Assembly (NCBI GenBank): GCA_021463145.1
Contig: JAJTWZ010000032.1
Coordinates: 1 to 46,820, forward strand
Reading direction: 5' to 3'
Length of the DNA stretch: 46,820 bases
From: Blastocatellia bacterium
GTDB lineage: Bacteria > Acidobacteriota > Blastocatellia > UBA7656 > JADIYM01
Below, one piece after another: positions 4,694 through 40,660 of the stretch. Within the stretch, counting starts at the first letter, position 1, and every line of letters starts with the position of its first letter. The translations under genes were made by a program, and so were the position numbers. A model generated the notes under the pieces. It was given only the letters and a program-made list of their open reading frames with translations, searched no databases and was not told the DNA's origin.

Positions 4694-4724
4694 CGGCGAC
4701 CGCCGTGCTGCTTCCCGCTGTCTG

Positions 4725-8360: not shown

Positions 8361-8372
8361 GGGCAACTGGCG

Positions 8373-11120: not shown

Positions 11121-11230
11121 TCCAAGCACCGCGAGTCCGAGTGGCTCCCGACAATGCATGACGAGCGCGGGCAGGAGTCGATCGCTCTCCGGACGGCCGC
11201 GGCGGCGCCGCCCGATAAAGATTGCAACCG

Positions 11231-11374: not shown

Positions 11375-11626
11375 ATTCTCTCGAAGCAAGGAAAGCAGTC
11401 CCACCGGTCGGCGACGTCTTAAGCGGAGTCAGTGAAGCCAGTCAGAGGTTACCGCCAAGATAGCGGCCCTCTCGGCAGTGACGTGACGATGACGGAGCGC
11501 TAGGGCGCGCTTGTGGCGCGAAGTGGGAAAGTACGTACCCGGCGCGAGGTACCGCACAATCTCGACACCCGCAGCGCACGTCACGGCGCCGGAGTCCGAC
11601 TTTGCGCCGATCCAAGCCGCACGATG

Positions 11627-12181: not shown

Positions 12182-12223
12182 CTCCGGCGGAGGACGCGTT
12201 CGCCTCCGAGTCGCACCGCGACT

Positions 12224-13189
12224 TTACCGAATCATCAGCAGTACGAGGAAGGCAAGGTAGACCGCGACAAGGAGGCCGCCTTCCGTTCGAGTGATCACGC
12301 GCTCCGTTCGCAGGAACAGCACGGCCATCCCCGTCAGCACCGCCATCAGCACAAGATCGATCCGCAGCGCGTCGTTCGAGCCCGCGATCGGTCGAATGAG
12401 TCCCGCAGCGCCGAGCACCACGAGCACGTTGAAGATGTTCGAGCCGACGACGTTTCCGACCGCGATCGCCGAGTGTCCCCGCAAGGCCGCGACGAGCGAC
12501 GCTGCCATCTCGGGCAGCGAAGTTCCAATGGCGACGATCGTCAGACCGACGACGAATTCGCTCATTCCGAGACCGAGTGCCAAGCTCACCGCACCGTCAA
12601 CGAAAGCCTTGCCCGCGACGAGCAGCACCGCCAGGCCGAGCACACTCCAGGCGGCAAGCGCCAGACGCGACACGGAGGGCTTCTCGTACACCGGTGGCTC
12701 GGCCGGCGGCACGGCAACGGCCGGATCCGAAATCTGCCGCGACGAACGCACGAGGTAGAACGTGAAGACACACGACGCCGCGAAGAGCAGGCCCGATTCG
12801 AAGCGTCCAATCGACCCGTCCCACAGCAGCAGCGGTACGGCGGCCGCCGAGAGCACGAGCACCGGCAACTCGCGATAGATGAGTCCGCCTTCGACCCGAG
12901 GCGGCGAGATGAGGGCTGTCACGCCGAGGATGAGACCGAAGTTCGCGATGTTCGACCCGATGATGTTGCCGAGTACGAGATCGCCCCGTCCGTCGAAGGC
13001 CGCTCCACACGAAACGACCAGCTCAGGCGCCGATGTTCCGTAGGCCACGACCGTCAGCCCGACGATGAGCGGACGAATACCGAACGAATGCGCCAACCCG
13101 GCCGTGCCGCGCACGAGCCATTCGGCGCCGAAGTAGAGACCAGCGCTTCCGGCGAGCAGCATAAGGACGTCGAGGAGCATGCCCGGCAC
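12224..13189 (-). CDS. CaCA-family Ca2+/cation antiporter (YrbG-like)
   Basis: A 321-residue membrane protein with about ten hydrophobic segments and the duplicated alpha-repeats of the family: GTSAPELVVS...GNIIGSNIANFGL in the first half and GTSLPEMAAS...GNVVGSNIFNVLV in the second. The conserved acids and polar residues of each repeat form the ion-binding centre. The two halves are inverted repeats joined by a hydrophilic loop near residues 150-175 (Pro/Ala-rich). It should exchange Ca2+ for Na+ or H+ across the inner membrane. It lies in the block of ion transporters but on the opposite strand to the antiporters and ClC. Confidence 0.9.
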   Translation of the reverse strand: MPGMLLDVLMLLAGSAGLYFGAEWLVRGTAGLAHSFGIRPLIVGLTVVAYGTSAPELVVSCGAAFDGRGDLVLGNIIGSNIANFGLILGVTALISPPRVEGGLIYRELPVLVLSAAAVPLLLWDGSIGRFESGLLFAASCVFTFYLVRSSRQISDPAVAVPPAEPPVYEKPSVSRLALAAWSVLGLAVLLVAGKAFVDGAVSLALGLGMSEFVVGLTIVAIGTSLPEMAASLVAALRGHSAIAVGNVVGSNIFNVLVVLGAAGLIRPIAGSNDALRIDLVLMAVLTGMAVLFLRTERVITRTEGGLLVAVYLAFLVLLMIR

Positions 13190-19205: not shown

Positions 19206-21395
19206 TTACATCCCCGTCGTCGCGGCCTTGGACGTTACCATGGCCTGCGAGGCCAACTCGCCGGCAAATTCGTAGTGTGCAATCCCTTCGAGGATTCCAA
19301 GTGCCGCGCGTCCCGAGGCGAAGTAGATCCGGTCCCGCCCCTCGAGGACCTTCAACTCGGCGCTGTGTCCGCCCACGACCACACCGCGGGTATCCCCGAG
19401 GAGCATCTCGACGTCATTTCCCGAGTCGCCGGCGACAAGGAACGAGCCGAGCGGCAGACCCCACTTGTAGGCGAGATAGCGAAGTGCGAGCCCCTTGGAC
19501 GCCCGAATGGGAAGCACGTCGAGGTACGCATTGCACGAATAGATCAGTCGTGCGTGAAGATTCTGTGATCTGAGCGCGGATGTGAGCTCGCGAATGGGAG
19601 GCATGCTCCGGGGGTCCACATCGTAGCTCAGCTTGAACTCGCGCTGGTTGTCGGCAGGCTGAAGCGTGAGCCCGGGGAAGGCGCCGAGTGCCTCCTCGAC
19701 GGCGTCGCGCCGCCACTTGTGGCGGATATGGTCGGACCATCCAGAATCGCGCCTCGCGTCCGGACCATAATGGATCTCGCTTCCGACCGACGTGATGAGA
19801 ACGTCCGGCATCGGCACCCGCCAGCGAGCAAGCACTGCGACGGCGCTTTCGAGGCAGCGGCCCGTGGCGACACCGAATGCGACTTTGTCCGACCGCTCGG
19901 CGATCCACGACATGAGCAACTCGAGCCCCTGACGCTCACCGATCAAGGTGTTGTCGATATCCGAAACGAGAGCGTGAGTGGCAAGCGGCAAAGGCGACGC
20001 GGCATCGCGCTTGAGCGACACGCGACCGCGCCGAATTCGCTTCCGTTCTCGTCGCACGAGCGCCTGTAGGTTCTTTACGTACCGCTCGACGTGCGCGCTC
20101 CAGGTGTAGTGCGTTCGGATACCCTTTATTCCTGAGCGAGACCAGTCGCGCCACTGCTCGTGACTCGACAGGGCCACTTCGAGCGCTGTCGCAATCGCTG
20201 CGGTGTCAAGCGGATCGACGAGCAGGCCGTTGCGGCAGTTCTCGACGATGTCGGTCGGTCCGCCGTCGTTCGTCGCGACAACGGGGAGGCCGCTCGCGGC
20301 GGCCTCGATGATCGTGAGTCCGAAGGGCTCGGTGAGCGCGGGATTGATGAAGACGCCCCTGCGTCGCGCGGCAAGGCGGTAGAACTCGGCTACGTCTTCC
20401 TGTGCGTGGTGCTTCGGAATGGCAACAGTTCCATAGAGATCGTACCGATCGATGTCGAGCAACAGATCCTGATATACCAATCTCGATGCCTCATCGAGCT
20501 CGCGGACGTCGTCGCGGTTGCCCACAACGAGCACGAGGTTCGCGCGCTCGCGCAGCGTTGCCGACTCGCCGAAGGCCGCAATGAGACGGCGCAGGTTCTT
20601 GCGGGAGTCGGGTCTCGAGATGGCGAGCACGATCGGCCTTTCGGGCTCGCGCAGAAATCGGTCGATGAGTGCGGAGACGCGACGGTCGAGTCGGTCGAGG
20701 TGCGACGGCGAAAACCTCGTCGTGTCGGTGCCAGGCGGAATGACGACCGCCCGACGAGGGTCGAAGTTCTCGTAAAGACCGTACTGTTCCACAATCTCCT
20801 GTCGCGTGCTGGTCACGACGAGAGAAGCGTGTGCGAGTACGGACTCTTCGGCTGCAATTCGTCGTGCGAAGTGAAATTGCCGATCGATTGCCGTCACCCG
20901 ACGGCCCGCTGCGATCAGCCGATCTCTCTTGCAGCGGCCGAGCGAATGGCCAGTGTGAACGAGGGGGATTCCGAGCAGGTGCGAGAGTTTCCTGCCGACC
21001 TCTCCCGCATCCGCGTAATGCGAGTGAATCACGTCGGGGCGCCGGCCTCGTCGCCGGATGTGCAGCAGAATCCGGTCGACGAACTGATCGAGGTGGGGCC
21101 ACAACAACTCCTTCCGGACGTATCGCCGCGGTCCAAAGGGCAGCCTGAGAATCTGCGCATTCGGTGCAATCTCCTCCTCAGGGTTCGCATAATCCGTCGA
21201 CACGGCGGGATCGTCGACGAGGCGTGTCAGGAGATCAACATTCGCGACGCCGGGATGACCTGCAAGGGCTCGGGCGAGTTCGACGACGTAGGTCACTTGA
21301 CCGCCCGTGTCGGCATCTCGCCCCAGCTCGAGGTTGTTGCCGCGGACGAGCCCATGCGGGCTCAACATGAGTATGTTCAGCCTCTTCGCTCTCAA
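19206..21395 (-). CDS. Bifunctional sucrose-phosphate synthase / sucrose-phosphatase
   Basis: A two-domain fusion of about 729 residues. The GT4 half has DADTGGQVTYVVELARAL at the start and EPFGLTIIEAAASGLP (E-x7-E) near residue 355, joining UDP-glucose (or ADP-glucose) to fructose-6-phosphate. The C-terminal HAD half (from about 475) has SDIDNTLIGE with the nucleophile Asp and AGDSGNDVEML with the Mg2+-binding acids, removing the phosphate. I take the TTG at 21393-21395 as start because it overlaps the fructokinase stop (TTGA) and suits coupling. The ATG at 21368 (MLSPHGLVRG) is the alternative. Sucrose made this way is a compatible solute in many salt-tolerant bacteria. Confidence 0.9.
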   Translation of the reverse strand: MRAKRLNILMLSPHGLVRGNNLELGRDADTGGQVTYVVELARALAGHPGVANVDLLTRLVDDPAVSTDYANPEEEIAPNAQILRLPFGPRRYVRKELLWPHLDQFVDRILLHIRRRGRRPDVIHSHYADAGEVGRKLSHLLGIPLVHTGHSLGRCKRDRLIAAGRRVTAIDRQFHFARRIAAEESVLAHASLVVTSTRQEIVEQYGLYENFDPRRAVVIPPGTDTTRFSPSHLDRLDRRVSALIDRFLREPERPIVLAISRPDSRKNLRRLIAAFGESATLRERANLVLVVGNRDDVRELDEASRLVYQDLLLDIDRYDLYGTVAIPKHHAQEDVAEFYRLAARRRGVFINPALTEPFGLTIIEAAASGLPVVATNDGGPTDIVENCRNGLLVDPLDTAAIATALEVALSSHEQWRDWSRSGIKGIRTHYTWSAHVERYVKNLQALVRRERKRIRRGRVSLKRDAASPLPLATHALVSDIDNTLIGERQGLELLMSWIAERSDKVAFGVATGRCLESAVAVLARWRVPMPDVLITSVGSEIHYGPDARRDSGWSDHIRHKWRRDAVEEALGAFPGLTLQPADNQREFKLSYDVDPRSMPPIRELTSALRSQNLHARLIYSCNAYLDVLPIRASKGLALRYLAYKWGLPLGSFLVAGDSGNDVEMLLGDTRGVVVGGHSAELKVLEGRDRIYFASGRAALGILEGIAHYEFAGELASQAMVTSKAATTGM

Positions 21396-22366
21396 AATGC
21401 TCCCGAAGAGTTCGTTAAGCAATGCCACTCGCGCAGGAACGGCTCGTAGAATGCCCCGCTCGCTGGAGCAGCCCCACGAATCTGGCAAACGGCTCGAGCC
21501 AGGGCGACGGCGCGGCCAAGAGTTACGTCCGGCGTCCACGCGAGCAACTCTCCGGCAATCAGCGCCGCTGAAACCGCATCCCCCGCACCGACCGTATCGA
21601 CCACGCTGTCGAGAGGCTTGACTCGCGTTTCGAAGTATTGGCCGTCATCAGTGACGAGCCACATTCCATTCGAGCCGTCCGTGACGACAAGGGACTTCAA
21701 GCAATAGGTCTCGACGAGGCCACGAGCTCGGGCGGTCGCGGGCAGATGGTCGACTTCGAGCAGAGCCGAGATCGTATCGAGCTCGCCGAGACTGAGCTTG
21801 ACGACATCGGCAGCCCGCAGTGATCGCACAATCGTCCCAACGTCGTACCACGGAGCCCGAAGGTTGGCATCAAGAAAGGCGAGACATCGGACCGCCTCGA
21901 GCGTCGCCTTAACTGCCGATCGCGAAGGCTCATGTCGTTGTGCGAGCGTGCCCCAATAGAAGACGGCGGGGTTGGCAGCGGAAGCGAGCCTGCGCGCCGT
22001 CCCTGGCTCGATGTAGTCGAAGGCCTGTCGCTCGGGAAAGTCGAAGAAGTTCGAAGAGCCTTCGAGCGTGATAGCCACTTGCCCGGTCGGGTTCACGGGA
22101 TCGAGCTGGATCCCTGCAGTGTCGAGCCCGCGCTCTGCCATCGCGCCGATCACTTCGGCTCCGGGTCCGTCATCTCCAACACGCGAGATGACCAGCGGGT
22201 TGAATCCAAACGCTGCGAGATGGCTGGCAACGTTCAGGGGAGCTCCCCCGGGTACGGCTCCGTCCGGAAACTCGTCCAGCAGAATCTCGCCAAACAGGAC
22301 CGGTCGATGACCTGCCGCGCCCGACCTATCGCCTTGCGTGATGTTTCGTGTCGCCTTTTTCTCCAT
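21392..22366 (-). CDS. PfkB-family fructokinase
   Basis: A 324-residue sugar kinase from the ATG at 22364-22366. FGEILLDEFPDG and PGGAPLNVASHLAAFG (about 40-55) are the N-terminal PfkB signature. DTVGAGDAVSAALIAG near 257-272 is the ATP/anion-hole motif with catalytic Asp263. It phosphorylates fructose to fructose-6-phosphate, recycling fructose freed by sucrose synthase and feeding sucrose-phosphate synthase. It is the first gene of the sucrose operon; its stop overlaps the next start. There is no Shine-Dalgarno sequence before the ATG, and a sigma-54-like element sits so close that the mRNA might begin about five bases upstream, which would give a nearly leaderless message. Confidence 0.87.
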   Translation of the reverse strand: MEKKATRNITQGDRSGAAGHRPVLFGEILLDEFPDGAVPGGAPLNVASHLAAFGFNPLVISRVGDDGPGAEVIGAMAERGLDTAGIQLDPVNPTGQVAITLEGSSNFFDFPERQAFDYIEPGTARRLASAANPAVFYWGTLAQRHEPSRSAVKATLEAVRCLAFLDANLRAPWYDVGTIVRSLRAADVVKLSLGELDTISALLEVDHLPATARARGLVETYCLKSLVVTDGSNGMWLVTDDGQYFETRVKPLDSVVDTVGAGDAVSAALIAGELLAWTPDVTLGRAVALARAVCQIRGAAPASGAFYEPFLREWHCLTNSSGAF

Positions 22367-22381
22367 CGGTTGGTAACAGTC

Positions 22382-22397
22382 TGCAAATGCCGTTCCG
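22382..22397 (-). promoter_or_regulatory. Possible sigma-54 promoter of the sucrose operon
   Basis: The minus strand reads CGGAACGGCATTTGCA. The GG and GC pairs have the required 10-base spacing and TTGCA is perfect, but the -24 box differs from TGGCACG at two positions. The predicted start point (~22371) is only about five bases before the fructokinase ATG. The shared 23-bp site at 22468-22490 lies about 110 bases upstream, a normal distance for an enhancer. Confidence 0.4.
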
Positions 22398-22467
22398 GCC
22401 GGTCCCGCGCGAAAATGGCTGCTGCTGGCAGGGTCTTGAGACTTGATTGGGGCGATCCGGGACGCTT

Positions 22468-22490
22468 GTGTCGCAGACTTCCTCAGTTCT
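22468..22490. promoter_or_regulatory. Putative enhancer site (copy 1 of a shared 23-bp motif)
   Basis: GTGTCgCAGAcTTCC followed by tCAGTTCT. It matches 28984-29006 at 20 of 23 positions in the same orientation. It lies between the divergent fructokinase and mscS genes, about 110 and 235 bases from the two predicted sigma-54 start points. I infer a binding site for the NtrC-type activator encoded at 30646. Confidence 0.55.
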
Positions 22491-22643
22491 CGATCCGCCA
22501 AAGGTGCAGGCGCGGGATCGAATCCGGAAGGATCAATCCGGGAAGATCGGTTGAGGCACGACTCCGTCGGGAGGCCGATCTGTCGCACCGTCACGCTATC
22601 CGGGGAGAGAACGGGTCCAGCGAGGCCACGAGCGAGGCAAGCA

Positions 22644-22659
22644 CGCGCGCGCGCGCGCG
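22644..22659. repeat. (CG)8 alternating tract
   Basis: Sixteen bases of perfect CG alternation between the divergent fructokinase and mscS genes, 30 bases before the mscS -24 box. Such tracts can adopt Z-DNA under negative supercoiling, which rises on osmotic upshift in some bacteria. A role here is only a possibility. Confidence 0.5.
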
Positions 22660-22689
22660 ATACTTGAACGCTCATTCCGTCGCTGCCCG

Positions 22690-22704
22690 TGGCACGCGAT
22701 TCGC
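22690..22704 (+). promoter_or_regulatory. Sigma-54 promoter of the mscS / sugar importer operon
   Basis: TGGCACGCGATTCGC matches the consensus TGGCACG-N4-TTGC at all fixed positions but one (C for the second T). The GG and GC are correctly spaced. Transcription would start near 22716, giving a 76-base leader before the mscS ATG at 22792. This also argues against the earlier ATG at 22717. Confidence 0.6.
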
Positions 22705-22791
22705 AAACGCAGCCTGATGCATGTGAGCGGAGTCAACCATCAGACATTGCGCTGGACTGAGCAGCGAACAGGTGCAAGAGGCGCGAGACCA

Positions 22792-25251
22792 ATGACGTGT
22801 CGAATCTCTCGCGAGCTGGAGATCGGGAAGTGCGCACAGTTCGGCGCAATGATTATCGCGGCGATCCTGGTTGCAGTGGCGTTTGGTGCGGTAACCACAG
22901 CGAGCGCGCAGGAAACGCGGGCCGCGAATCCGATTGACCTCGCTGAAATCGTCCGTCAGTCAAACGACGCCGACCGGGAGCTGCGTGAAGCCGAGGCTGC
23001 ATTGTCAGCCGGGCCATGGGGCGTGGCAATCGAGGAACGGCTATCCAGGACGATCGGCGAGATCGATGAGCAGGTTCGCATTTCGAACGAGCTCTTCGCG
23101 GCACAACCTACGCTCGACGCGATTCGTGAGGTCGAGCAACGATGGCTGGACATCGGTTCAGGACTCGCGGCCATGCAGGAGGAACTGAGTGCCCAGGCTG
23201 ATCGCGACTCTGCCAATCTGGATCGACTCACGGAGCTCGAGGCATCGTGGACTCGCATCGTTGAGGATGGGGCGCAGGCCGGCGTTCCATCGGCAGTCCT
23301 GGCTCGCGCCAAGGCGATCGCTGTCCGCATCGACGAAGTGCTCGCCCGGACAAGAGGAGCGCGCCAGCGAGTTCTCGTGCTTCAGGGCCAGGTAGCTGAC
23401 CAGCAATCGCGTGTGCAGGATGCAGTTGCCAGTGCAAGACTCCTGCGAGAGGCTGCCCTTGGACGCCTCTTTGCGCGTGACAGCGACGCAATATGGAGAG
23501 TGTTGTCTAGCGGCAACGTAGCCGAGGCCGAATCCGATGTCCGCTCGGCACTCGTTGATGAGGTGTCGACACTCAGCGAGTACGGACGACAAACGGGCGA
23601 ACGTTTCGCCCTGCACGTCGGTGTGGTCATACTGTTTGCCCTGGGCGCAGCCTGGGCCAGGCGCCGGGTCCGGCCGTGGGTCACTGACAAGGCGAGCCTT
23701 GCGCCAGTCGCCGCTGTCTTTGACCATCCGTTCGCCATGGCGGTCGTACTTTCCACGCCGGCCAGCGGGTGGATTCATCCGCAGGCGCCCCGCATCTTCG
23801 GCGCGATGCTTGGCGCAGTGGCGCTGGCGGCCACATGTGTCGTCCTCTGGAATCTCGTGGAGGCTTCACTGAGGCCGTTGCTGCTCGCGCTCGGAGGGCT
23901 CTACGTCGCTGGGGTCGCGGAGTCGATCCTGCACACGGTTCCACTCGCGTCGCGGACGGTCGTGCTGGTCGAGTCGGTTGCCGCCATCCTTTTCCTCGTG
24001 TGGTTTGCGAGGCGCGAGTCGACCGGAGAGTGGACGGCACGGGGCGTAGCGGTTGCTGGAGGGGCCTTTTCCACTGCCATCGTTTCCAGCGCTCTTGGAT
24101 ACACCACGCTATCCCGGTTCGTGGTTGCGGGATGCCTCGGAAGCGCGGCTGCCGCAGTCATTCTCTATGCATTGGCGAGAATCCTCGATGGGCTCGTCCT
24201 GTTCGCGCTTCGCGTTTCTCCGCTGGCGATGCTGCGAATGACCCGCAATCACCGGCCAGCACTGCGCCGCCGCATGGCGATCGTCGTGCGATTCGTGCTC
24301 GGGCTCGTCTGGCTTCTGGTTACGCTCGAGCTTTTCGCGGCGAGGGAGACCGTGGAGTCGGCAGTGCGCGGTGCGCTCACTTCAACCGCATCCATCGGGG
24401 AAATCAGCATCTCTCTCGGTGACGTGCTTCTCTTCGCAGCATGTATCGTTGCCGCAGTCTTCGTCGCCCGGTTTCTACTCTTTGCGCTCGAAGAAGATGT
24501 CTACCCTCGGGCGGGGCTACCTCGCGGAGTTCCGTTTGCCATCTCGACGATCGGACGCTATGCGGTGCTCTTCTTCGGTTTCGTTTTCGCATTGAGTGCG
24601 ATGGGAGTCGACCTGTCAAAGTTCGCGCTTCTTGCAGGAGCTTTTGGCATCGGACTCGGCCTCGGGCTGCAGAACGTCGTCGCGAACTTCGCCTCCGGCC
24701 TCATTCTGCTTTTCGAGCGTCCGGTGAAGGTCGGCGACACGGTGGAAGTCGACAAGTTCGCTGGCGACCTGCGTCACATCGGGCTTCGGGCCAGCGTCAT
24801 TCGGACGCTCGAGGGGTCCGAAGTCATCGTCCCCAATACCGATCTCGTTTCGGAGAAAGTCATCAACTGGACACTGACGGACCAGCAACGACGGCTTTCG
24901 ATCGACGTTGGCGTGGCTTATGGAACTGAGCCCGAACGGGTGCTGGAACTGCTCACCGATGTGGCCCTTGCGCATCCGAAGGTGCTCGTCGACCCACCGC
25001 CGCAGGCACTGTTCCTTGGATTCGGTGACAGTGCGCTCAACTTCCAGCTGCGAGCGTGGACCGGACATTTCAATGGCTGGCAGGTCGTCCGGAGCAACCT
25101 TGCCGTCGGCGTAAACGCTGCCCTGCGCGACGCTCGAATCGAGATTCCGTTCCCGCAGCGCGACCTGCATCTCGTTTCGGTCTCGAACGTGGTGACGGAC
25201 CCGCCCGCGCTTGCGGCAGTCCCACCCAGGCAGGATCCCTCGAGTAACTGA
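22792..25251 (+). CDS. Large MscS-family mechanosensitive channel with periplasmic N-domain
   Basis: An 819-residue protein. An N-terminal signal (AMIIAAILVAVAFGAVTTAS, then AQE) leads into about 250 residues rich in Glu, Gln, Arg and Ala, predicted helical and periplasmic, as in MscK/MscM-type members. About ten membrane segments follow. The MscS core begins near 580, and the pore helix GIGLGLGLQNVVANFASG shows the Gly/Ala packing of TM3. The beta and alpha/beta cytoplasmic domains end at about 800. Such channels open on hypo-osmotic shock and release solutes such as sucrose. Here the channel starts an operon: its TGA is one base before the ATG of a sugar-binding protein. Confidence 0.88.
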   Translation: MTCRISRELEIGKCAQFGAMIIAAILVAVAFGAVTTASAQETRAANPIDLAEIVRQSNDADRELREAEAALSAGPWGVAIEERLSRTIGEIDEQVRISNELFAAQPTLDAIREVEQRWLDIGSGLAAMQEELSAQADRDSANLDRLTELEASWTRIVEDGAQAGVPSAVLARAKAIAVRIDEVLARTRGARQRVLVLQGQVADQQSRVQDAVASARLLREAALGRLFARDSDAIWRVLSSGNVAEAESDVRSALVDEVSTLSEYGRQTGERFALHVGVVILFALGAAWARRRVRPWVTDKASLAPVAAVFDHPFAMAVVLSTPASGWIHPQAPRIFGAMLGAVALAATCVVLWNLVEASLRPLLLALGGLYVAGVAESILHTVPLASRTVVLVESVAAILFLVWFARRESTGEWTARGVAVAGGAFSTAIVSSALGYTTLSRFVVAGCLGSAAAAVILYALARILDGLVLFALRVSPLAMLRMTRNHRPALRRRMAIVVRFVLGLVWLLVTLELFAARETVESAVRGALTSTASIGEISISLGDVLLFAACIVAAVFVARFLLFALEEDVYPRAGLPRGVPFAISTIGRYAVLFFGFVFALSAMGVDLSKFALLAGAFGIGLGLGLQNVVANFASGLILLFERPVKVGDTVEVDKFAGDLRHIGLRASVIRTLEGSEVIVPNTDLVSEKVINWTLTDQQRRLSIDVGVAYGTEPERVLELLTDVALAHPKVLVDPPPQALFLGFGDSALNFQLRAWTGHFNGWQVVRSNLAVGVNAALRDARIEIPFPQRDLHLVSVSNVVTDPPALAAVPPRQDPSSN

Positions 25252-25252
25252 G

Positions 25253-26566
25253 ATGGATGAATCTTCCGTCAAACCCCGGAGGAACTCGACACTGAAGCGC
25301 GCGCAGTACGCTTGCCAGTATTTCGCGCCACTGGTTCTCACCCTGACTCTGGTTGCGAATCCTGGTTGCTCGCGAGCGCCGGAAACGGGTCTCCCGATTC
25401 GGGTGACGTTCTGGCACGGGATGGAGCTGGGGGTGAACAACGAGGTTCTCGAAGCCAAAATCAGGGTGTTCAACGACTCACACCCCGGAATCGTCATCGA
25501 GAGCCAGATCTTCGGGGCTGCGGACCAGCTCGGTCCAAAGCTCGATGCAGCCGTGGCGGGCGGGACGCCCCCCGACCTGCTCTGGTGGGCTCCGGCCTAT
25601 TTTCCGAAATACGCGAGAGTGGGTGCGCTGCAGAGCGTGGACGAGTTCATCGAATCCGATCCAACCTTCCTCAAGGACGACGTCTACGACGCTCTGTGGG
25701 AACTCGGCACCTACGGTGGCCGCGTTTTCGTGACGCCCTTTTCGGCGAACAACCTCGCGGTCTATTACAACAAGGAGATGTTCGATCGGGCGCGGATCGA
25801 ACGCCCGCCGGAAACGTGGGACGAGTTTCGCGATACAGCCGCCCGGTTGACTCGTGACGGTGTCCATGGATTCCAGATCCCGGCTGGCACATCGGAATGG
25901 ACCGTGTGGACCTGGCAGTGTTTTCTCTGGCAGGCAGGGGGCGAGATCCTCGATGCGGAGAACCGCTCCGCCGCGTTCGACAGCCGGGCCGGCGTCTCGG
26001 CACTCGAATTCTGGCGGGCGCTCCTGGCCGACGGATCGGCCGTGATCTCGGAAACCGATGCAGGCTACAAGACGTCCGACTTCCTCGCGGGACGTGTCGC
26101 GATGGTAATCAACGGACCCTGGAACTACGCCGAGATCCGGACGCAACGGAACGTCGACGTCGGGGTGTTCCCCTTGCCTGCAAACGAGCGGGCCGCGACG
26201 AACATCGGTGGGGAGTCACTCTTTCTCTTTCAGTCGAATCCGGCTCGCGAACGGGCAGCCTGGGAATTCATGAAGTTCGTGATGAGCCCGGACTTCCAGA
26301 TCGATTGGGCGATCGCGACAGGTTACCTTCCCGTCTCGAAGTCAGCGGCCACCAGCCCGGAGTATCTGGCATTCCTGGACCGGAATGCGTTCCTTGAGGT
26401 CTACAACCGCCAGATGAACGTTGGCAGGGTCCGTCCCTCCGTGCCCGAATATGCCGCGGTCTCGGCGATTCTCGGACGCCAGATCGAGGCGGCGCTTTAC
26501 GGCAAGTACTCATCCGAAGAAGCGCTCGCCCGTGCAGCCGCCGAAACGGATCGGCTCCTGAGATGA
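25253..26566 (+). CDS. Sugar ABC transporter substrate-binding protein (family 1, MalE-like)
   Basis: A 437-residue secreted protein. A hydrophobic signal (PLVLTLTLVANPGC) ends at Cys39, which looks like a lipid attachment site although the residues just before it (NPG) are not a classic lipobox. The body shows the extracellular-solute-binding family 1 pattern: VTFWHGMELG at the start, YYNKEMFDRARIERPPETWD in the middle, and GRVAMVINGPWNYAEI and GYLPVSKSA towards the end. It captures a sugar or oligosaccharide for the two permeases that follow. It starts one base after the mscS stop and overlaps the next gene by four bases. Recapture of leaked sucrose or another disaccharide is an attractive guess. 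Confidence 0.88.
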   Translation: MDESSVKPRRNSTLKRAQYACQYFAPLVLTLTLVANPGCSRAPETGLPIRVTFWHGMELGVNNEVLEAKIRVFNDSHPGIVIESQIFGAADQLGPKLDAAVAGGTPPDLLWWAPAYFPKYARVGALQSVDEFIESDPTFLKDDVYDALWELGTYGGRVFVTPFSANNLAVYYNKEMFDRARIERPPETWDEFRDTAARLTRDGVHGFQIPAGTSEWTVWTWQCFLWQAGGEILDAENRSAAFDSRAGVSALEFWRALLADGSAVISETDAGYKTSDFLAGRVAMVINGPWNYAEIRTQRNVDVGVFPLPANERAATNIGGESLFLFQSNPARERAAWEFMKFVMSPDFQIDWAIATGYLPVSKSAATSPEYLAFLDRNAFLEVYNRQMNVGRVRPSVPEYAAVSAILGRQIEAALYGKYSSEEALARAAAETDRLLR

Positions 26567-27435
26567 CGCGGCTGCAGAAAGACACGCTGACGGCCTACCT
26601 CTTCGTCCTTCCGGCGGCGCTGTTGCTTTCCGTCTTCGTCGTCTACCCGATCGTCGATCTGGTTGTCGTCAGTCTGCACGAGTGGAACATTCTTGAAGAC
26701 CGGATGACGTACGTCGCGGCGGCCAACTATCGCGCCGTGCTCGCGGACGATGCCTTCCGCCAGGCATTTGTGAATACCCTCATCTTCGTTGCCGGCACCG
26801 TGCCAACGGGGATGGTGATCTCGCTCGGTCTTGCGCTGCTGCTCGATTCGCGCATCAGGGCGGTCCGATTTCTGCGTGCGGCGATCTTCACTCCATACGT
26901 CACGTCGACGGTCGCGGCCGGTGTCGTCTTCGTGTGGCTGTTCGATGTCGATCAGGGGTCTGTCAACGCAGTCCTGGGGGTCGTGGGGATCAAAGGCCCG
27001 AACTGGCTTCAGAGCGAGGCTTGGGCCATGCCGGCAGTCATCCTGATGACACTCTGGAGGCAGGCCGGATACTCAATGGTTCTGTTTCTTGCCGGCTTGC
27101 AGGCCATCCCCGAAAGTACCTACGAAGCGGCGACGATCGATGGTGCCCGGCCAGGCTGGCAGACCTTTCGACACATCACCTGGCCGCAACTCTGGCCCAC
27201 CACGTTCTTCGTGCTCGTCGTTTCGGTGATCTTCGCGTTCCGGGCCTTCGAGCCGATGTACGTCATGGTGCGAGGGGGGCCGGTCGGTTCGACGACAACG
27301 CTCGTCTACTACGTCTTCGACCGGGCTTTTCGGTTCGGCGACATGGGCCAGGCTGCTGCCGTATCGACATTGCTGCTTGCGCTGGTACTGGCGTTGACCT
27401 GGCTGCAGTTCCGCTTCGGGCGGGACGAGGTGTAA
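26563..27435 (+). CDS. Sugar ABC transporter permease (MalF/UgpA type)
   Basis: A 290-residue protein with six membrane segments. The EAA loop reads YEAATIDGARPGWQTFRHIT near residues 187-206, the docking site for the ATPase. Its ATG overlaps the binding-protein stop (ATGA). It forms a heterodimer with the product of 27439-28257. It carries no large periplasmic loop, so it is closer to UgpA/MsmF than to E. coli MalF. Confidence 0.9.
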   Translation: MTRLQKDTLTAYLFVLPAALLLSVFVVYPIVDLVVVSLHEWNILEDRMTYVAAANYRAVLADDAFRQAFVNTLIFVAGTVPTGMVISLGLALLLDSRIRAVRFLRAAIFTPYVTSTVAAGVVFVWLFDVDQGSVNAVLGVVGIKGPNWLQSEAWAMPAVILMTLWRQAGYSMVLFLAGLQAIPESTYEAATIDGARPGWQTFRHITWPQLWPTTFFVLVVSVIFAFRAFEPMYVMVRGGPVGSTTTLVYYVFDRAFRFGDMGQAAAVSTLLLALVLALTWLQFRFGRDEV

Positions 27436-27438
27436 CGA

Positions 27439-28257
27439 ATGCAGCTACGACCTACATGCTCCAGGATCCGCTTTGCCGCGTCACTCTTGATTGCGGCCCT
27501 GTTCGCTCTCCCGCTCTGGGTCGTACTCGTCACGTCGCTCGATGACCCTGCTGGATTGGGATTCAGTACCTGGCTGATACCGTCGAGATTGCGGTTCGAA
27601 AACTACGTCGAGGCGTGGCACGCGACGAACTTTCCGCGACAGTTCGTCAACAGCCTCGTGGTCGCACTCGCCGTGACGGCCGGACAGGTTCTGACATCGT
27701 TGATGGCCGGGTATGCCTTCGCAAGAATCCGGTTCATCGGCCGCGACGTAATCCTGATGGCCCTCTTGAGCACGATCATCGTGCCGTTCCAGGTCCTGGT
27801 CATTCCGGTGTTCGTCATTCTGGCCAAGTTGAGCTGGATCAACACCTACTGGGCTCTCATCGTGCCATCGCTGGCAAACGCCTTCGGCATCTTCCTGTTC
27901 GCCCAGTTCTTCCGGACGATTCCGTATGAGCTGGAGGAAGCCGCTTACGTCGACGGTGCGACTCGTTGGCGCGTTCTCTGGCAGATCATGGTGCCTCTGG
28001 CACGTCCGGCGATTGCAACGCTCTTTCTTTTCACTTTCATCGCCGAGTGGAACGAGCTCTTCAAGCCGCTGGTCTTCACGAGCACGAAAGACATGCGGAC
28101 CGTTCAACTCGGGCTTTCGGTATTCCAGGAGCAGTTCCGGGTCGACTACGTGCACCTGATGGCTGCCGTCGTCTTTACGACGGTACCGAGCGTTCTACTC
28201 TTCCTTCTCGGCCAGAAGCACTTCGTGAAGGGCATCGCCACGACCGGGCTGAAGTGA
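27439..28257 (+). CDS. Sugar ABC transporter permease (MalG/UgpE type)
   Basis: A 272-residue, six-segment permease starting three bases after the preceding stop. The EAA motif EEAAYVDGATRWRVLWQIMV is clear. Together with 25253 and 26563 it makes an importer that lacks its own ATPase. The expected MsmK/UgpC-type ATPase is not in the window and is presumably shared from elsewhere in the genome, as is common for family 1 sugar importers. It is the last gene of the mscS operon and faces the convergent secreted-protein gene. Confidence 0.9.
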   Translation: MQLRPTCSRIRFAASLLIAALFALPLWVVLVTSLDDPAGLGFSTWLIPSRLRFENYVEAWHATNFPRQFVNSLVVALAVTAGQVLTSLMAGYAFARIRFIGRDVILMALLSTIIVPFQVLVIPVFVILAKLSWINTYWALIVPSLANAFGIFLFAQFFRTIPYELEEAAYVDGATRWRVLWQIMVPLARPAIATLFLFTFIAEWNELFKPLVFTSTKDMRTVQLGLSVFQEQFRVDYVHLMAAVVFTTVPSVLLFLLGQKHFVKGIATTGLK

Positions 28258-28267
28258 TGCTATGGGC

Positions 28268-28283
28268 GTGATCGCGCGATCAC
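28268..28283. repeat. Perfect 16-bp palindrome between convergent genes
   Basis: GTGATCGCGCGATCAC lies between the importer permease stop and the end of the secreted-protein gene, overlapping the latter's stop codon. It could form a small hairpin in both transcripts or bind a dimeric protein. There is no T-run, so I do not call it an intrinsic terminator. Confidence 0.4.
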
Positions 28284-28783
28284 AGCGTCTTCATGGTGAT
28301 TATCGTGTAGGGTTTTTCGCCAGCGGTGCGGCTGTACGCAACCCAATAACCGAGGGCGGGATAATCGATTCTCCTCGATCCGGACCCGTCAGGTGCGAAC
28401 TCGATACTCGAGCCGAGCACGGCCTCGGGTGTCGGAGCCTTGCTCTCGTAGCCAATGTATGTCGCAACAATGGCTTCGGCCTTGCCGTCTTCGCCGTAGT
28501 AGACGCGGGCCCTTTCGACGTCCGAGAACTCGAAGTATTCCACCGTGTCGTCTTTCTCTTTCGGCTTCCCAAGGAGCTTGTGGATTTCCTCGGCCGCCAT
28601 GCCGAGCCGCGCGCCCTTGAGTTCCTGATAGAGCGGGGCCTTCGGCGTGGACACTGCTGCTGCCGAGCCAGCGGTTTGACCCGCCTGAGAGGCCAGGGCC
28701 AAGGTCGGCGCGATGGTCAACAGGACCACTGTGAGGGCGCTTCTAAAACCACCGCCCGCTGCGATCTTTGAACTCTTCTTCAT
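28280..28783 (-). CDS. Small secreted protein of unknown function
   Basis: A 167-residue product from the ATG at 28781-28783, preceded by a strong ribosome site (AGGAGGT, about ten bases upstream). Residues 1-32 form a signal peptide (KKSSK..., then LTVVLLTIAPTLALA, with cleavage likely before SQAGQ). The mature part has a stretch LGMAAEEIHKLLGKPKEKDD with VEYFEF shortly after, and a domain of short strands. The pattern recalls periplasmic SmpA/OmlA-like or DUF-type folds (G-M...E.....LGKP), but I cannot name it. It has its own sigma-54 promoter and is divergent from a histidine kinase/NtrC pair, so it is the most direct candidate target of that system. Confidence 0.75.
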   Translation of the reverse strand: MKKSSKIAAGGGFRSALTVVLLTIAPTLALASQAGQTAGSAAAVSTPKAPLYQELKGARLGMAAEEIHKLLGKPKEKDDTVEYFEFSDVERARVYYGEDGKAEAIVATYIGYESKAPTPEAVLGSSIEFAPDGSGSRRIDYPALGYWVAYSRTAGEKPYTIITMKTL

Positions 28784-28815
28784 CTTGAATGAGTACCTCC
28801 TGTAGCCGATCCGAC

Positions 28816-28831
28816 TGCAAAGGACATACCA
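28816..28831 (-). promoter_or_regulatory. Sigma-54 promoter of the secreted-protein gene
   Basis: The minus strand reads TGGTATGTCCTTTGCA: TGG-ATG with correct spacing to a perfect TTGCA. It differs from TGGCACG only by two C-to-T changes. Predicted start near 28805, followed by AGGAGGT and the ATG at 28783. The enhancer-like 23-bp site is about 190 bases upstream. Confidence 0.65.
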
Positions 28832-28983
28832 GCCGTCCGGAATTCGACGTGAACCAGGCCTCGAAGTCGCGAAAGCTCGACCGAAGCCTGGGATTTCCGT
28901 TCGACCCGCCGTCGCGCGGTTCGGCAAAGCCGGAAAGCACGGTGTGAACAGCCTATGGACCGAGAGGTCAGGGCATCGCCGCA

Positions 28984-29006
28984 GTGTCCCAGAATTCCAC
29001 AGTTCT
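28984..29006. promoter_or_regulatory. Putative enhancer site (copy 2 of a shared 23-bp motif)
   Basis: GTGTCcCAGAaTTCC followed by aCAGTTCT. The inner 18 bases form an imperfect dyad, CAGAA...TTCTG. It lies between the divergent secreted-protein and kinase genes, 73 bases before the kinase ATG, and matches 22468-22490 at 20 of 23 positions. It could serve both the secreted-protein promoter and control of the kinase operon. Confidence 0.55.
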
Positions 29007-29078
29007 GCGTCGAGATGTCGCAGGGCGCGGGCAACCGCCCCGTTCACCACGACGAAGTCGTTTTACGCTCGAGGGGAT

Positions 29079-30671
29079 ATGATGAATCAGGTATCGAGTG
29101 ACGGACGCGGTGCACAGGACGCGTGGAATGGCCGCGGACTTGCATTCCGTTTCCGCAGATTGCGAATGAGTACGAGTACCAAACTGATTCTGACGTTGAC
29201 ACTTGTCGTTGGTGCCGTCATGGCGTCGGCAGGCTACGCACTCGTGCGCAACCAGGAAACGGCCTTGATGGCACACAGGCAGAACGAAGTTCTTGCGCAC
29301 GCCATCACGCTCCAGTTGGCGCTCGACGAGGCCTACCGAGCCGGGCGGCCCGAGAGCGCCACGTCACTGATCGACCGGCTCAGCGAAAACCCGAAAATCG
29401 AGGGAGTGATCCTCTACGACGAACGGGGACAGGTCGCTGTGCAGTCGAAACCCATCGTCACCACCGGATCTGGACATTTGGAAGATGTTCAGCGGGTCAT
29501 CGAAACAGGTGAAACGGTCGAACGCCTGCTGCGCATCGACGACGCCGACTTCCTGTCGGTCATCATGCCGGTACGCCTCGAGGGCGGGCAGGCCGCCTTC
29601 GAGATCGTCGAGGTGACGACATTCGTCAAGGCCGACATCCGGGAAGCCCGCGCGACCATCGTGGTAACGACACTCTTGCTGTTCGCGATGATTTTCGCGG
29701 TGGTCGTGCTCGTCACGCGCCGCAACCACACGAGGCCGATCGCTGCCCTGCTTGCCGGGGCCCGCGCGCTCGGCGGCGGCGAGCATGGCTACCGGGTTGC
29801 CGTCGATCACGGCGGTGCAGAGTTCACAGAACTTGCAAGCGAGTTCAACCGGATGGCAGATCGTCTCGCGGAACAGCGCAGCGCCGCCGAACGCGACGCC
29901 GACCAGAGGCTGACGCTCGAACGAAGCATTCGTCACAATGAAAGGCTCGCCCTCGTCGGACGCCTCGCCGCGGGAGTCGCGCACGAGATGGGAGCGCCTC
30001 TCAATGTCATTGACGGGCGGGCGGCGCAGATTCTGTCACAGCCGAACGCGTCGCTCGATCGACGCCAGCGGAATCTCACGATCATCCGGACGCAGACGCA
30101 GCGCATTGCCCGAATCGTCCGGCAACTTCTCGGCCTGGCGCGGCCCTACGACCTGCATCCCGTTGAGCTCGACCTCGGGCGTCTTGCGCGCAGTGCATGC
30201 GATCTGGTCGAGCCGGAGGCCAACGCCGCTGCCGTCGAGATCATCGTGTCGGCACCCGGCGCCGCTGTCGTTGAAGTCGACGAACAGCTTGTTCAGCAGG
30301 TGCTTCTGAATCTTTGCCTGAACGCCGTGCAGGCGATGCCGCACGGTGGGCGGCTGCGCGTCGGAGTATCGACGGATACCGGGGGAGGGGAGGTTCTGGT
30401 ACGAGTCTGCGACTCAGGACCGGGTATTTCGCCCGATGATCTTCCCCAGGTTTTCGATCCGTTCTTCACCACGAAGGACGTCGGCAGCGGCACCGGTCTC
30501 GGCCTGAGCGTGTCGCGCCGGATCATCGAGGAGCACGGCGGCCGCATCGAGGCCGCCAACGATCCGTCGGGCGGAGCGGTATTTACCGTCCATCTACCGC
30601 TACCGGTCAAACCAGGCTCAGCAGCGGAAGAGGAGGTGGCAGCAGTTGGCAACACGGCTACTGGTCGCTGA
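29079..30671 (+). CDS. Membrane-bound sensor histidine kinase (NtrB/ZraS-like)
   Basis: A 530-residue kinase from the ATG at 29079, which has GAGGGG just before it; Met2 is an equally good start. Two membrane segments (about 34-55 and 191-213) enclose a ~135-residue periplasmic sensor. A HAMP domain (about 214-266) is followed by the H-box [18 protein letters not shown] with His302, then N ([11 protein letters not shown]), G1 (DSGPGI), F (FDPFFTTKD) and G2 (GTGLGLS) boxes of the HATPase. It is thus a complete ATP-binding autokinase. The gene overlaps the activator gene by 26 bases, so they form a cognate pair. The signal is unknown; the regulon suggested by the shared 23-bp site points to osmotic or envelope stress. 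Confidence 0.9.
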
Positions 30672-31998
30672 GGACGACGCCGACATGCGCGACTTCCTCG
30701 TCGACGTTCTCGAGGATGCGGGCTACGAGACCGTCGGCGCAATCGACGGCGTCAAGGCCATCGAGCGCGTTTCGACTGGCCGCGAACACATCGATCTCGT
30801 GATCACGGACGTTCGAATGCCCGGGGCGAGCGGTGCCGAGCTCCTCGCCGCTGTCCGCGAGCATCGCACGGAGGCACCCGTGATCGTCATCACCGCTTTC
30901 GGCTCGGTACATCACGCCGTCGAGATGGTGAAGGCAGGCGCCTATCACTACCTCACGAAGCCCTTTGAAGCAACGGATCTTCTGGCGTCCGTCGAGGCTG
31001 CTCTCGAGGCGTCGGCGCCTCAGCGCGAGCACGCGCGCCTGCGCCGCGAAGTTCCCCTGGCCCCCGAGCGCATCATCGGTGCTTCCCGCCTCATGCGCGA
31101 GCTTTTCGATCTGATCGATCGCGCAGCTCGAAGTTCGAGCACGATCCTACTCTCCGGCGAGTCGGGAACCGGGAAGGAGCTCGTCGCCCGCGCCGTCCAC
31201 GAGGCATCCGGGCGGCGTGGTCCGTTCATTCCCGTCAACTGTGCCGCGATTCCGGCCGACCTCATCGAGTCCGAGCTCTTTGGCCATACGGACGGTGCGT
31301 TCACCGGCGCAAGGCAGGCCCGGCCGGGCTTGTTCGAAGCGGCCAACGGCGGAACCCTGTTCCTTGACGAGGTCGGCGAACTTCCGCTCGTCGTTCAGCC
31401 CAAGCTGCTGCGCGCGCTGCAGGAGGGTGCCGTGAGGCGCGTCGGAGCGGACCGTGAACGCGAAGTCGACGCGCGACTGGTGGCGGCCACGAACCGTGAC
31501 CTCGAGGTACACGTATCTCAGGGTCGTTTCCGCGAGGACCTGTACTGGCGACTCAACGTGATACCCATTCACATTCCTCCTCTGCGCGAAAGGGCCATGG
31601 ACATTCCACTCCTCGTCGACCACTTCATGACACGTGCCTGCCTTGCCGCAGGGCGCCAACCGCTCGACGTCGCGCCGGACACACTCGCAATCCTGACGGC
31701 CTATTCGTGGCCGGGAAACGTCAGGGAGCTCGAGAACGCCGTCGAGCGGGCGCTCGCGCTCGCGCGCGGACCGAGGCTCACGCCCGACGATCTTCCCGAG
31801 CGCATTCGAACGACGGGTGAAGCCGCGGCTGTGATCGTCCGGGCGCAGGAGAGGCGACTTACACTTCGGGAGCTCGAGAGGGAATACATTCTCGAGACGG
31901 TGCATCGCACCGGGGGAAACAAATCGCGCGCCGCCGAGATGTTGGGACTCGACCGGAAGACCCTCCACCGGAAGCTCAATGAATACGGCAGTGAGTGA
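30646..31998 (+). CDS. NtrC-family sigma-54-dependent response regulator
   Basis: A 450-residue activator starting at a TTG at 30646 after AGGAGG, inside the end of the kinase gene. The receiver domain has D10/D11 and phospho-acceptor D55 ([10 protein letters not shown]). The AAA+ domain has Walker A GESGTGKE (171-178), the sigma-54 contact loop GAFTGA (217-222) and Walker [11 protein letters not shown] (236-245). A Fis-type helix-turn-helix ends the chain ([20 protein letters not shown]). When phosphorylated by the kinase it should open sigma-54 promoters from enhancer sites. Candidate targets are the secreted-protein gene, the mscS operon and the sucrose operon. The stop overlaps the start of the pgpH-like gene. 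Confidence 0.93.
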
Positions 31999-34297
31999 CC
32001 GCACGTCGCCGAGAGGTGTTTGGCGCACGTGGCGGAATGCTGGTCCTCGCGAGCGTTGGATGCTGGGAGCAAGTGTCGCGGCACTCGCCGCGTGCGCCTG
32101 GATCGTCGCTTCAACGGGCTCGGTTCCGAACCTCGACTACTCAGTTGGCGACCTGGTTCGAGCCGAGATTGTGTCCCCGGTGTCGTTTTCGGTCCTGGAT
32201 CCGGAGCGCACGGAGGCACGCCGGGCCGAAGCGGCCGGGCGTATCGTGCCCGTTTTCGACTACGACCCAGACAGGAATACACGAGCGATTGAGCAGCTCG
32301 AGGCCTCACTCGTTCACCTTCGCGCGGTGTATGAAGCCGAGCGGTCGACGGAGAATCCGCCCGTTCCCGAGACGTTCGCGGAGGCGCATCTCGAGGAGTT
32401 TCCTCTCGGCAATGCGTCGCTACTCGCGCTGTTGGCGCGACGGAGTTTCGACCCGGCGCTCATCGAGGCGCTTGTCCAGGTGCTCGAGCGGCATTCGAGC
32501 GGATTCCTCATCGCCGATGATGTCGCTGCCGTGCCGGAGCTTGAGGCGCGCGTGGCGGCGACCGGCGAGCACTTCGCTCTGTCGTTTCGAACCGTTCGCC
32601 GGCTCTCGTTCGCGAAAGGACCCTTGCGTGCCGAACTCCTCGAATTGCCGGGACTGACCGTCGCGGAGAGGCGGCAGATCGGCGCGGCGATCGAAGGCCT
32701 CATTTCCAGTACGCTGACGTTCGACGGCGCGGCGACGGCGGCTGGCCGCCAGGCGGCTCGCGATGCGATAGCGGAGGTCCGGGACGAGTATCAGGCTGGA
32801 CAGCTCGTTGCTTACCGCAATCAGCGCGTCGACGATCGCATTGCGCGCGCACTCGAGGAACTGCGATCGAGGGCGACGACGCCCAACCGAGTGGCCAAGT
32901 GGTGTGCGCTCCTTACCGCGATCCTGGTCATTTCGATCGGCTTGATGCGGACGACCGAAGAAGTTCGGTCGTCCGGACTTTCCAGGGGCCGCGCTGCGCT
33001 TCTCGTGACGCTCACGCTCGTTTGCCAGGTGGCGGTCGTGCGCTTCGGACTCCAGATCGCCGAAGGACTCGGAAACATTCCCTCGGCACCCGGACTCTAT
33101 GGTGGCCCGTTCTACGTGTACGCGATTCCCGTGGCCGTCGCGCCGCTCGTCATCGCGCTGCTCGTCGACCGTACGCTCGGTCTTGTCGTGGGCCTGACGG
33201 CCGTCCCGCTGCTCGCTCTGATGACGGCTGGCTATCCCGGGGGAGGACTGGCTTTTGGGGTCTACGTCGCCGCGGCCGCTGTTGTCGCCTCGCGAGGGAG
33301 CATCCGGTATCACTCGCGTTTCGAGCTCGTTCGGGTTGGGCTTCTCCTGTGCGTGGTGCAAGTTGCCATCTCCGCCGCGGCGGCGGTGCTTGCAGGCGAC
33401 GGAACGCTCGACGGGCGTCGCGTTGCGAGCACCGCTTGCCTCGCCGCTCTCGGCGGCGTTCTTGGGGTGGCCCTTTCGGCGATCGTCTTGCCGGTCGCAG
33501 AGCGGCTTTTTCACATCGTGAGCGACGTTCGGTTGCTCGAGCTCGCCAACGCCGACCACGACCTTCTGCGTGAGCTGGCGATCGATGCTCCCGGCACGCA
33601 CCAGCATTCCTACGTGATGAGTTCGGTCGCGACGGAAGCGGCAAAAGCCATCGGGGCCAATCCGCTGCTCGTGCGCATCGGAGCCTTCTTTCACGATGTC
33701 GGCAAGCTCCATGCGCCGGATATGTTCGCGGAGAACCAGCGCGGCGGGCCGAATCCGCACGACCTGCTCGAACCGGCCGAGAGTGCTCGAATCATCATTC
33801 GTCATGTCTCGTACGGAGTCGAGCGGGCACGGGCTGCCGGGATTCCGCCGCAGATCTGCGAACTCATCACCGGCCATCACGGGACGCGGACTCTTCATTT
33901 CTTTCTCGAGAAAGCAAAGCGCGAGGCGACTGAGGGCACCACGGTCGACGAGACTCAATTCCGGTACCCAGGACCCAAGCCGCAGACGAAGGAATCGGCC
34001 ATTCTGATGCTTGCCGATGGAGCCGAGGCTGCGGTGCGAAGCCTCGATCATCCGACGCGGGAGACGATCGAGGCCATCGTTCATAAGATCGCCGACACAG
34101 TCGTTGGTGACCATCAACTCGACGAGTGCGGGATCACGCTCTCCGAGGTCGCCCGGGTACGAGAGGCGATCGTCGAGACGCTGTTGCACGTCCATCACCG
34201 ACGCGTCAAATATCCGGGTTTCAACCCTCCGTCCGGGACGGAAGTCGCCGGAGGCGAGGTGGGCTCCCCGAGGAGGTTCGAGGCCGCGGACCGATGA
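31979..34297 (+). CDS. pgpH: PgpH-type c-di-AMP phosphodiesterase (7TMR-HD membrane protein)
   Basis: A 772-residue protein with the three-part PgpH layout. There is one N-terminal membrane segment (about 28-46), then a 250-residue extracytoplasmic 7TMR-HDED domain with IVPVFDYDPD, and seven membrane segments from about 305 to 505. A cytoplasmic HD phosphohydrolase domain follows, starting PGTHQHSYVMSSVA (about 538) with the metal pair in GAFFHDVGKL (about 568-577) and TGHHG later. Members hydrolyse the second messenger c-di-AMP, which governs K+ and osmolyte transport in many bacteria. Its ATG at 31979 lies inside the end of the activator gene, an unusual operon partner. A GTG at 31991 is a second start option. 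Confidence 0.9.
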   Translation: MNTAVSDRTSPRGVWRTWRNAGPRERWMLGASVAALAACAWIVASTGSVPNLDYSVGDLVRAEIVSPVSFSVLDPERTEARRAEAAGRIVPVFDYDPDRNTRAIEQLEASLVHLRAVYEAERSTENPPVPETFAEAHLEEFPLGNASLLALLARRSFDPALIEALVQVLERHSSGFLIADDVAAVPELEARVAATGEHFALSFRTVRRLSFAKGPLRAELLELPGLTVAERRQIGAAIEGLISSTLTFDGAATAAGRQAARDAIAEVRDEYQAGQLVAYRNQRVDDRIARALEELRSRATTPNRVAKWCALLTAILVISIGLMRTTEEVRSSGLSRGRAALLVTLTLVCQVAVVRFGLQIAEGLGNIPSAPGLYGGPFYVYAIPVAVAPLVIALLVDRTLGLVVGLTAVPLLALMTAGYPGGGLAFGVYVAAAAVVASRGSIRYHSRFELVRVGLLLCVVQVAISAAAAVLAGDGTLDGRRVASTACLAALGGVLGVALSAIVLPVAERLFHIVSDVRLLELANADHDLLRELAIDAPGTHQHSYVMSSVATEAAKAIGANPLLVRIGAFFHDVGKLHAPDMFAENQRGGPNPHDLLEPAESARIIIRHVSYGVERARAAGIPPQICELITGHHGTRTLHFFLEKAKREATEGTTVDETQFRYPGPKPQTKESAILMLADGAEAAVRSLDHPTRETIEAIVHKIADTVVGDHQLDECGITLSEVARVREAIVETLLHVHHRRVKYPGFNPPSGTEVAGGEVGSPRRFEAADR

Positions 34298-40658: not shown

Positions 40659-40660
40659 GG

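Follow-up and report, generated by a model that had tools for sequence, protein, structure and literature searches.

Two intergenic regions of a 46,820-nucleotide stretch of a Blastocatellia genome (this whole stretch is the window hereafter) carry similar 23-bp sequences. The question is whether one NtrC-type activator with sigma-54 could control the surrounding sucrose, mechanosensitive channel, sugar importer and secreted-protein genes through them. An earlier note proposed this, naming the regulator encoded from position 30646 (regulator 30646) as the activator. The features are listed in Table 1.

Table 1. Genes, repeats, predicted regulator sites and predicted promoters, with positions in the window
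Feature	Position	Strand	Remarks
Sucrose synthase (SUS)	16788..19187	-	TIGR02470 1160 bits, above cut-off
Sucrose-phosphate synthase/phosphatase (SPS/SPP)	19206..21539	-	TIGR02472 691 and TIGR02471 316 bits, both above cut-off
PfkB-family sugar kinase, fructokinase-like	21392..22366	-	PF00294
Possible extra weak site, low confidence, TGTCGCCTTTTTCTCCA	22349..22365	.	9.7 bits, rank 2; overlaps first pfkB codons
Sigma-54-type promoter of pfkB-SPS-SUS operon, CGGAACGGCATTTGCA	22382..22397	-	14/16; gap 71 from site 1; 0.014 expected
Site 1, repeat copy, GTGTCGCAGACTTCCTCAGTTCT	22468..22490	+	20/23 identical to 28984-29006
Predicted regulator site, TGTCGCAGACTTCCTCA	22469..22485	.	pfkB/mscS gap; 9.2 bits, rank 5 of ~46,800 window positions
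Sigma-54-type promoter of mscS operon, TGGCACGCGATTCGCA	22690..22705	+	15/16; gap 204 from site 1; 0.003 expected
MscS/MscK-type mechanosensitive channel, long N-terminal region	22792..25251	+	PF00924, PF21082; MscK model 230 bits, below cut-off
ABC sugar-binding protein	25211..26566	+	PF13416
ABC permease, UgpA/MalF-like	26563..27435	+	PF00528
ABC permease, UgpE/MalG-like	27439..28257	+	PF00528
Secreted protein, no known family	28280..28783	-	homologues beside kinase/regulator pair in G031, G042
Sigma-54-type promoter of secreted-protein gene, TGGTATGTCCTTTGCA	28816..28831	-	14/16; gap 153 from site 2; ~33 nt before ATG 28783; 0.012 expected
Site 2, repeat copy, GTGTCCCAGAATTCCACAGTTCT	28984..29006	+	20/23 identical to 22468-22490
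Predicted regulator site, TGTCCCAGAATTCCACA	28985..29001	.	secreted-protein gene/kinase gap; 13.5 bits, rank 1 of ~46,800 window positions
Sigma-54-type promoter of kinase/regulator operon, TGGCCGCGGACTTGCA	29129..29144	+	13/16; 37 nt before ATG 29166; 0.086 expected
Sensor histidine kinase	29166..30671	+	HAMP, HisKA, HATPase; start MSTSTKL conserved
NtrC-type response regulator, proposed activator	30646..31998	+	REC, AAA+ with GAFTGA, HTH_8
7TM-HD phosphohydrolase	31979..34297	+	PF07697, PF07698, PF01966; overlaps regulator gene

With SPS and SPP domains and a sucrose synthase above the curated cut-off, the sucrose genes form a bacterial sucrose synthesis operon, and the SPS is the sole copy among 161 genomes of the class (E <= 1e-100). 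The secreted protein has no match in Pfam or NCBIfam, and its homologues in relatives G031 and G042 share 26%/23% identity with it. With low confidence, it may resemble DUF4309/YjgB, to which its single-sequence model (pLDDT 68) gave a Foldseek E of 2.4e-4. No Rfam families were found in the window.

The sucrose genes are preceded by two Na+/H+ exchangers, a ClC channel with CBS domains and a Na+/Ca2+ exchanger (4674-13189), and in G031 the kinase/regulator pair likewise has ClC and Na+/H+ exchanger genes on its flanks. At 8372-8462 (also about 8640-8683), 91 bp share 83.5% identity with the 3' end of the sucrose synthase gene and adjoin a short piece of a receiver domain resembling what lies downstream of sucrose synthase; judged by this similarity, the stretch is a decayed duplicate of the sucrose synthase/response-regulator junction. 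A longer repeat at 8413 and 16828 (22/23) was rejected as a related site, being such a decayed sucrose synthase fragment. Elsewhere, TnsA-like and rve/Mu transposase domains lie within one frame (1358-4045), and ThiF and prokaryotic E2 family D genes make up a ubiquitin-like conjugation cluster (39762-42618).

Regulator 30646 has the parts of an NtrC-family protein, namely a receiver domain (PF00072, aa 6-116) with phospho-acceptor Asp D55, an AAA+ sigma-54 interaction domain (PF00158, 230 bits) with GAFTGA at aa 217, and a Fis-type helix-turn-helix (PF02954) near-identical in orthologues. The family's dyad enhancer site upstream of -24/-12 promoters is present at the level of sequence only. 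All NCBIfam equivalogs compared were below their cut-offs: AtoC (447/714 bits), NtrC (435/559), NtrX (408/600), PrsR (368/502.6), and ZraR (367/760). The kinase gene was taken to begin at ATG 29166 and ATG 29079 was rejected, as orthologues begin at the equivalent of MSTSTKL. The 7TM-HD phosphohydrolase gene is probably cotranscribed with the regulator gene. Orthologues of the kinase and regulator occur in 23 of 162 class genomes; the rest of the phylum sample has almost none. Nearly all relatives' loci fetched have the kinase followed by the regulator, the latter 58-73% identical. A wider contig scan with the regulator as query gave only distant paralogues (at most 48% identity); orthologues were therefore drawn from class relatives, and the paralogue loci were reused as a negative control for motif coupling. 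Other NtrC-type activators exist in the same genome, with 10 GAFTGA motifs in a 1.44-Mb sample.

On recheck, the two repeats were alike at 20 of 23 positions and on the same strand, as first described, and both lie in divergent intergenic regions, one between pfkB and mscS (22367-22791) and the other between the secreted-protein and kinase genes (28784-29165). As a bare window-wide statistic this identity is weak, because 17 same-strand pairs, mostly in GC-rich coding sequence, reach 20/23. When the comparison is confined to these two intergenic regions, the pair is rare: Markov resampling gave 20/23 in 0 of 1500 cases and 19/23 in 0.3%. The earlier note would have counted many copies at random genome positions against its reading; this was not the case, and a degenerate 23-mer (at most 3 mismatches) matched these two places alone in the 5.28-Mb genome (control, 0). 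The 23-mers could in principle be a short dispersed repeat or chance duplication with no regulatory role, as the 17 window pairs would allow, but the copies are intergenic, the genome has no third one, and a matrix trained on other genomes recovered both, so that this origin is most improbable.

The 23-bp site as proposed exists as a repeat, but its informative part is a 17-bp palindrome (22469-22485 and 28985-29001). The whole 23-mer was rejected as a conserved element: relatives' kinase promoters match it at just 13-16 of 23 positions, and the palindromic core is conserved instead. GTTCT, the last five bases of both 23-mers, lies outside the palindrome and is absent from the relatives' motif.

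The palindrome was learned without the window, from the upstream regions of 17 orthologous kinase/NtrC loci of the same class. Palindromic expectation-maximisation in the region upstream of the sigma-54 promoter returned TGt.GCAa.tTGC.aCA with log-likelihood 55.6 (24-33 in 12 shuffles), and the consensus of the predicted regulator site is TGTsGCAnnnTGCsACA. A de novo search with the promoter left in place returned the sigma-54 element itself. The matrix, never exposed to the window, ranks position 28985 first and 22469 fifth and therefore recovers both previously noted sites. The palindrome of site 1, TGTCGCAGACTTCCTCA, matches TGTSGCANNNTGCSACA at 12 of 14 positions. With 9.2 against 13.5 bits, the pfkB/mscS site is modest and the weaker of the two.

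The background of the genome itself was estimated from a 1.19-Mb sample of its 5.28 Mb, which has 87 sites of at least 9 bits per Mb. The palindrome pattern with at most 2 mismatches has 40 matches in the genome and a control pattern 31, and the genome's own sites are thus degenerate. The motif (at least 8 bits) flanked by divergent sigma-54 sites occurs twice in the window, exactly at 22469 and 28985, and not once in the 1.19 Mb sampled. Locus L321 on contig C10 of the same genome (10540-10680) has a 16.3-bit regulator-type site 108 bp upstream of a 15/16 sigma-54 element, and the gene behind this arrangement, for a secreted protein like M36 metallopeptidases, may also belong to the regulon.

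Sigma-54 promoter matches had been described at suitable distances from each repeat, and all four flanking genes do have a correctly oriented one; the expected numbers in Table 1 (0.003, 0.014, 0.012, and 0.086) were computed from own-genome rates. Because the predicted transcription start is very near the annotated ATG of pfkB, the gene may really begin downstream of that codon. Upstream regions of orthologous kinases have a sigma-54 promoter (GG/GC invariant, at least 13/16) in 17 of 26 cases, with 0.9 expected from shuffles, and an unconstrained motif search over them returns this promoter by itself. The part of the genome sampled for rpoN, 1.44 Mb, showed no rpoN box. The promoter variant TGGCACG-N4-TCGC[AT], which resembles the mscS promoter of the window, recurs before secreted-protein genes of the same genome (for example at L273 2499, L274 2508, L275 2521, L277 2507, and L279 2466).

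Coupling of the motif to sigma-54 sites was tested in the relatives with training regions masked, sigma-54 sites of at least 14/16 and a distance of 30-160 bp. It was found 16 times in the kinase/regulator neighbourhoods, at other genes near the pair, while 100 column-permuted matrices in the identical test gave a mean of 0.66 and a maximum of 4. At a stricter cut-off there were 19 couplings in 0.375 Mb of class neighbourhoods, training promoters counted in, and the 1.46 Mb surrounding distant NtrC-like regulators from other phyla had none.

The relatives' genes behind motif and sigma-54 site code for beta-carbonic anhydrase, SulP transporters, UPF0182, baeRF-family protein, L,D-transpeptidase, TerC, and small secreted proteins. 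Judging by the carbonic anhydrase, SulP, UPF0182, L,D-transpeptidase and TerC genes, the regulon may extend more broadly to envelope and ion stress. The G031 homologue of the window's secreted protein is preceded by a 19.4-bit site, 20 bp from which is another of 12.1 bits, and the order on one strand is secreted protein-GpgS-MPGP-MscS. GpgS there is a glucosyl-3-phosphoglycerate synthase relative (NF040724 372 bits, below the 700 cut-off), and MPGP belongs to the mannosyl-3-phosphoglycerate-phosphatase family (TIGR01486 223 bits, above cut-off). This operon, near which a ClC channel and a Na+/H+ exchanger are encoded, has a weak sigma-54 element (11/16). GpgS is present in 10 of 161 class genomes, two of which, G031 and G011, bear the regulator. 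In G011 a 14.8-bit site lies 173 nt ahead of the GpgS start with CGGCACGGTGATTGTA in between, where the sigma-54 element ends TTGTA; upstream of GpgS in the eight genomes without the regulator no motif was found. G042 has a 15.1-bit site and a sigma-54 site before consecutive DUF2383, PRC-barrel and secreted-protein genes. More distant homologues of the secreted protein lack the motif. No promoter-coupled motif was found at full-length mscS homologues of the relatives, and conservation of the link therefore does not extend to mscS.

It could be asked whether the sites belong to another sigma-54 activator of this genome, which encodes several with GAFTGA, one of them in the window (36207-37826). 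This is very unlikely, as in the relatives the motif was found upstream of the operon of this regulator, repeatedly adjoining it, and GpgS genes carry it only in regulator-bearing genomes. The proposal that regulator 30646 would be the common activator of the sucrose genes, mscS/importer and secreted protein is thus borne out as far as prediction goes: the motif from relatives alone finds both sites, four sigma-54-type promoters are properly oriented, and the relatives' motif precedes osmolyte genes and a secreted-protein homologue.

Among the targets, the kinase/regulator operon itself has the strongest support, a point not stressed in the earlier reading. Control of the sucrose and mscS genes is less certain than autoregulation, because the genome's own sites are degenerate, site 1 is modest and the relatives' mscS homologues are without the motif. 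In the narrower case, only the kinase/regulator operon, perhaps with the secreted-protein gene, would be a real target, the resemblance of site 1 would be fortuitous or a remnant, and the sucrose and mscS operons would be under other control. The low score of site 1, its 204 bp to the mscS promoter and the motif-free mscS homologues agree with this, and the sucrose genes, unique to the genome, offer no orthologous promoter for comparison. Against it, two of the five best window positions are in or at the edge of the pfkB/mscS intergenic region, the divergent genes have 14/16 and 15/16 sigma-54 elements, the 20/23 identity to site 2 exceeds what the motif requires (0 of 1500 resamplings), and osmolyte genes of two relatives carry the motif. 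The narrower case is considered unlikely.

The preferred reading is a class-restricted, autoregulated sigma-54 two-component system that quite probably controls a regulon for osmolyte and envelope stress, in which the osmolyte module is exchangeable. Direct computation gave the motif, where it lies in this genome and in the relatives, the link between it and sigma-54-type promoters, and the genes present. An osmotic or envelope signal would lead the kinase to phosphorylate its partner regulator 30646, which would then bind TGTsGCAnnnTGCsACA at both sites and, by DNA looping, activate sigma-54 RNA polymerase at the promoters on either side. Site 1 would serve pfkB-SPS-SUS (sucrose synthesis) and mscS with the ABC importer; site 2 would serve the secreted-protein gene and the kinase/regulator operon. 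Sucrose, mscS/importer and secreted-protein genes would in this genome have been recruited to one autoregulated system for osmolyte, ion and envelope stress, with sucrose as the osmolyte here and glucosylglycerate in two relatives.

The osmotic signal and the role of sucrose as osmolyte are inferred from MscS, two osmolyte pathways, and ClC and Na+/H+ exchangers, which are also in the window. The signal might instead be non-osmotic (envelope, pH/bicarbonate or metabolic stress) with sucrose as a reserve; the relatives' carbonic anhydrase, SulP, UPF0182, L,D-transpeptidase, TerC and baeRF targets fit such a role, and turnover of sucrose could be the task of the ABC importer, sucrose synthase and PfkB kinase. 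Because these neighbourhoods repeatedly contain MscS, ClC, Na+/H+ exchangers and two independent osmolyte pathways, this alternative is regarded as a tentative possibility.

The functions chiefly associated with sigma-54 concern nitrogen, flagella, carbon sources and certain stress responses; sucrose is a compatible solute made via SPS/SPP/SUS in cyanobacteria and methanotrophs. Acidihalobacter also uses sucrose in this way via SPS/SPP/SUS (PMC6396713). The enzyme set is shared with such systems, and here it adjoins mscS and is behind sigma-54-type promoters. AtoSC/ZraSR-type systems likewise have a HAMP/HisKA kinase beside a REC-AAA+(GAFTGA)-HTH_8 regulator and a palindromic enhancer upstream of -24/-12 promoters, and autoregulation of ZraSR has been discussed (PMC12316311). 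The system here differs in equivalog scores below the cut-offs, in its site TGTsGCAnnnTGCsACA, and in its predicted osmolyte, mechanosensitive-channel and envelope targets. DVU3305 of Desulfovibrio vulgaris is, in the parts of the reports considered, an NtrC-type general-stress sigma-54 regulator of its own operon and of UspA-type stress and transport genes (PMC3333781, PMC4641369). It is like the proposed system by this description; those parts do not name osmolyte synthesis or a mechanosensitive channel among its targets. Sigma-54 enrichment before MscS genes was predicted genome-wide in Planctomycetia (PMC12316311), which puts MscS behind sigma-54 promoters as here, but in another phylum and with no activator, site or osmolyte genes assigned. 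With the PrsR model of the PrsK/PrsR (PEP-CTERM) sigma-54 system, TIGR02915, regulator 30646 scores 368 bits, below the 502.6 cut-off, and PEP-CTERM genes were not noted near the sites here. The earlier note knew of no described sigma-54 circuit of such content, and none was found in the literature on sigma-54 with sucrose, osmolyte or mechanosensitive channel, nor any report of sigma-54 control of compatible-solute synthesis plus such a channel, within incomplete coverage.

The further-reaching reading would make this class-restricted autoregulated system a master switch of osmotic/envelope stress, in which each enhancer serves two divergent promoters, and lineages swapped the osmolyte pathway (glucosylglycerate or the class-unique sucrose operon) and kept regulator, site and some accessory genes; the chances of this are evenly balanced. 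The case supplies a defined regulator, a 17-bp site, four mapped (predicted) promoters and the comparative prediction that the site accompanies osmolyte genes in regulator-bearing genomes, by which regulon rewiring after pathway replacement becomes directly testable. It also offers a function for an uncharacterised two-component system of 23 of 162 class genomes. If true, one regulator may run the salt and water-stress programme of these bacteria, with the osmolyte as its swappable part.
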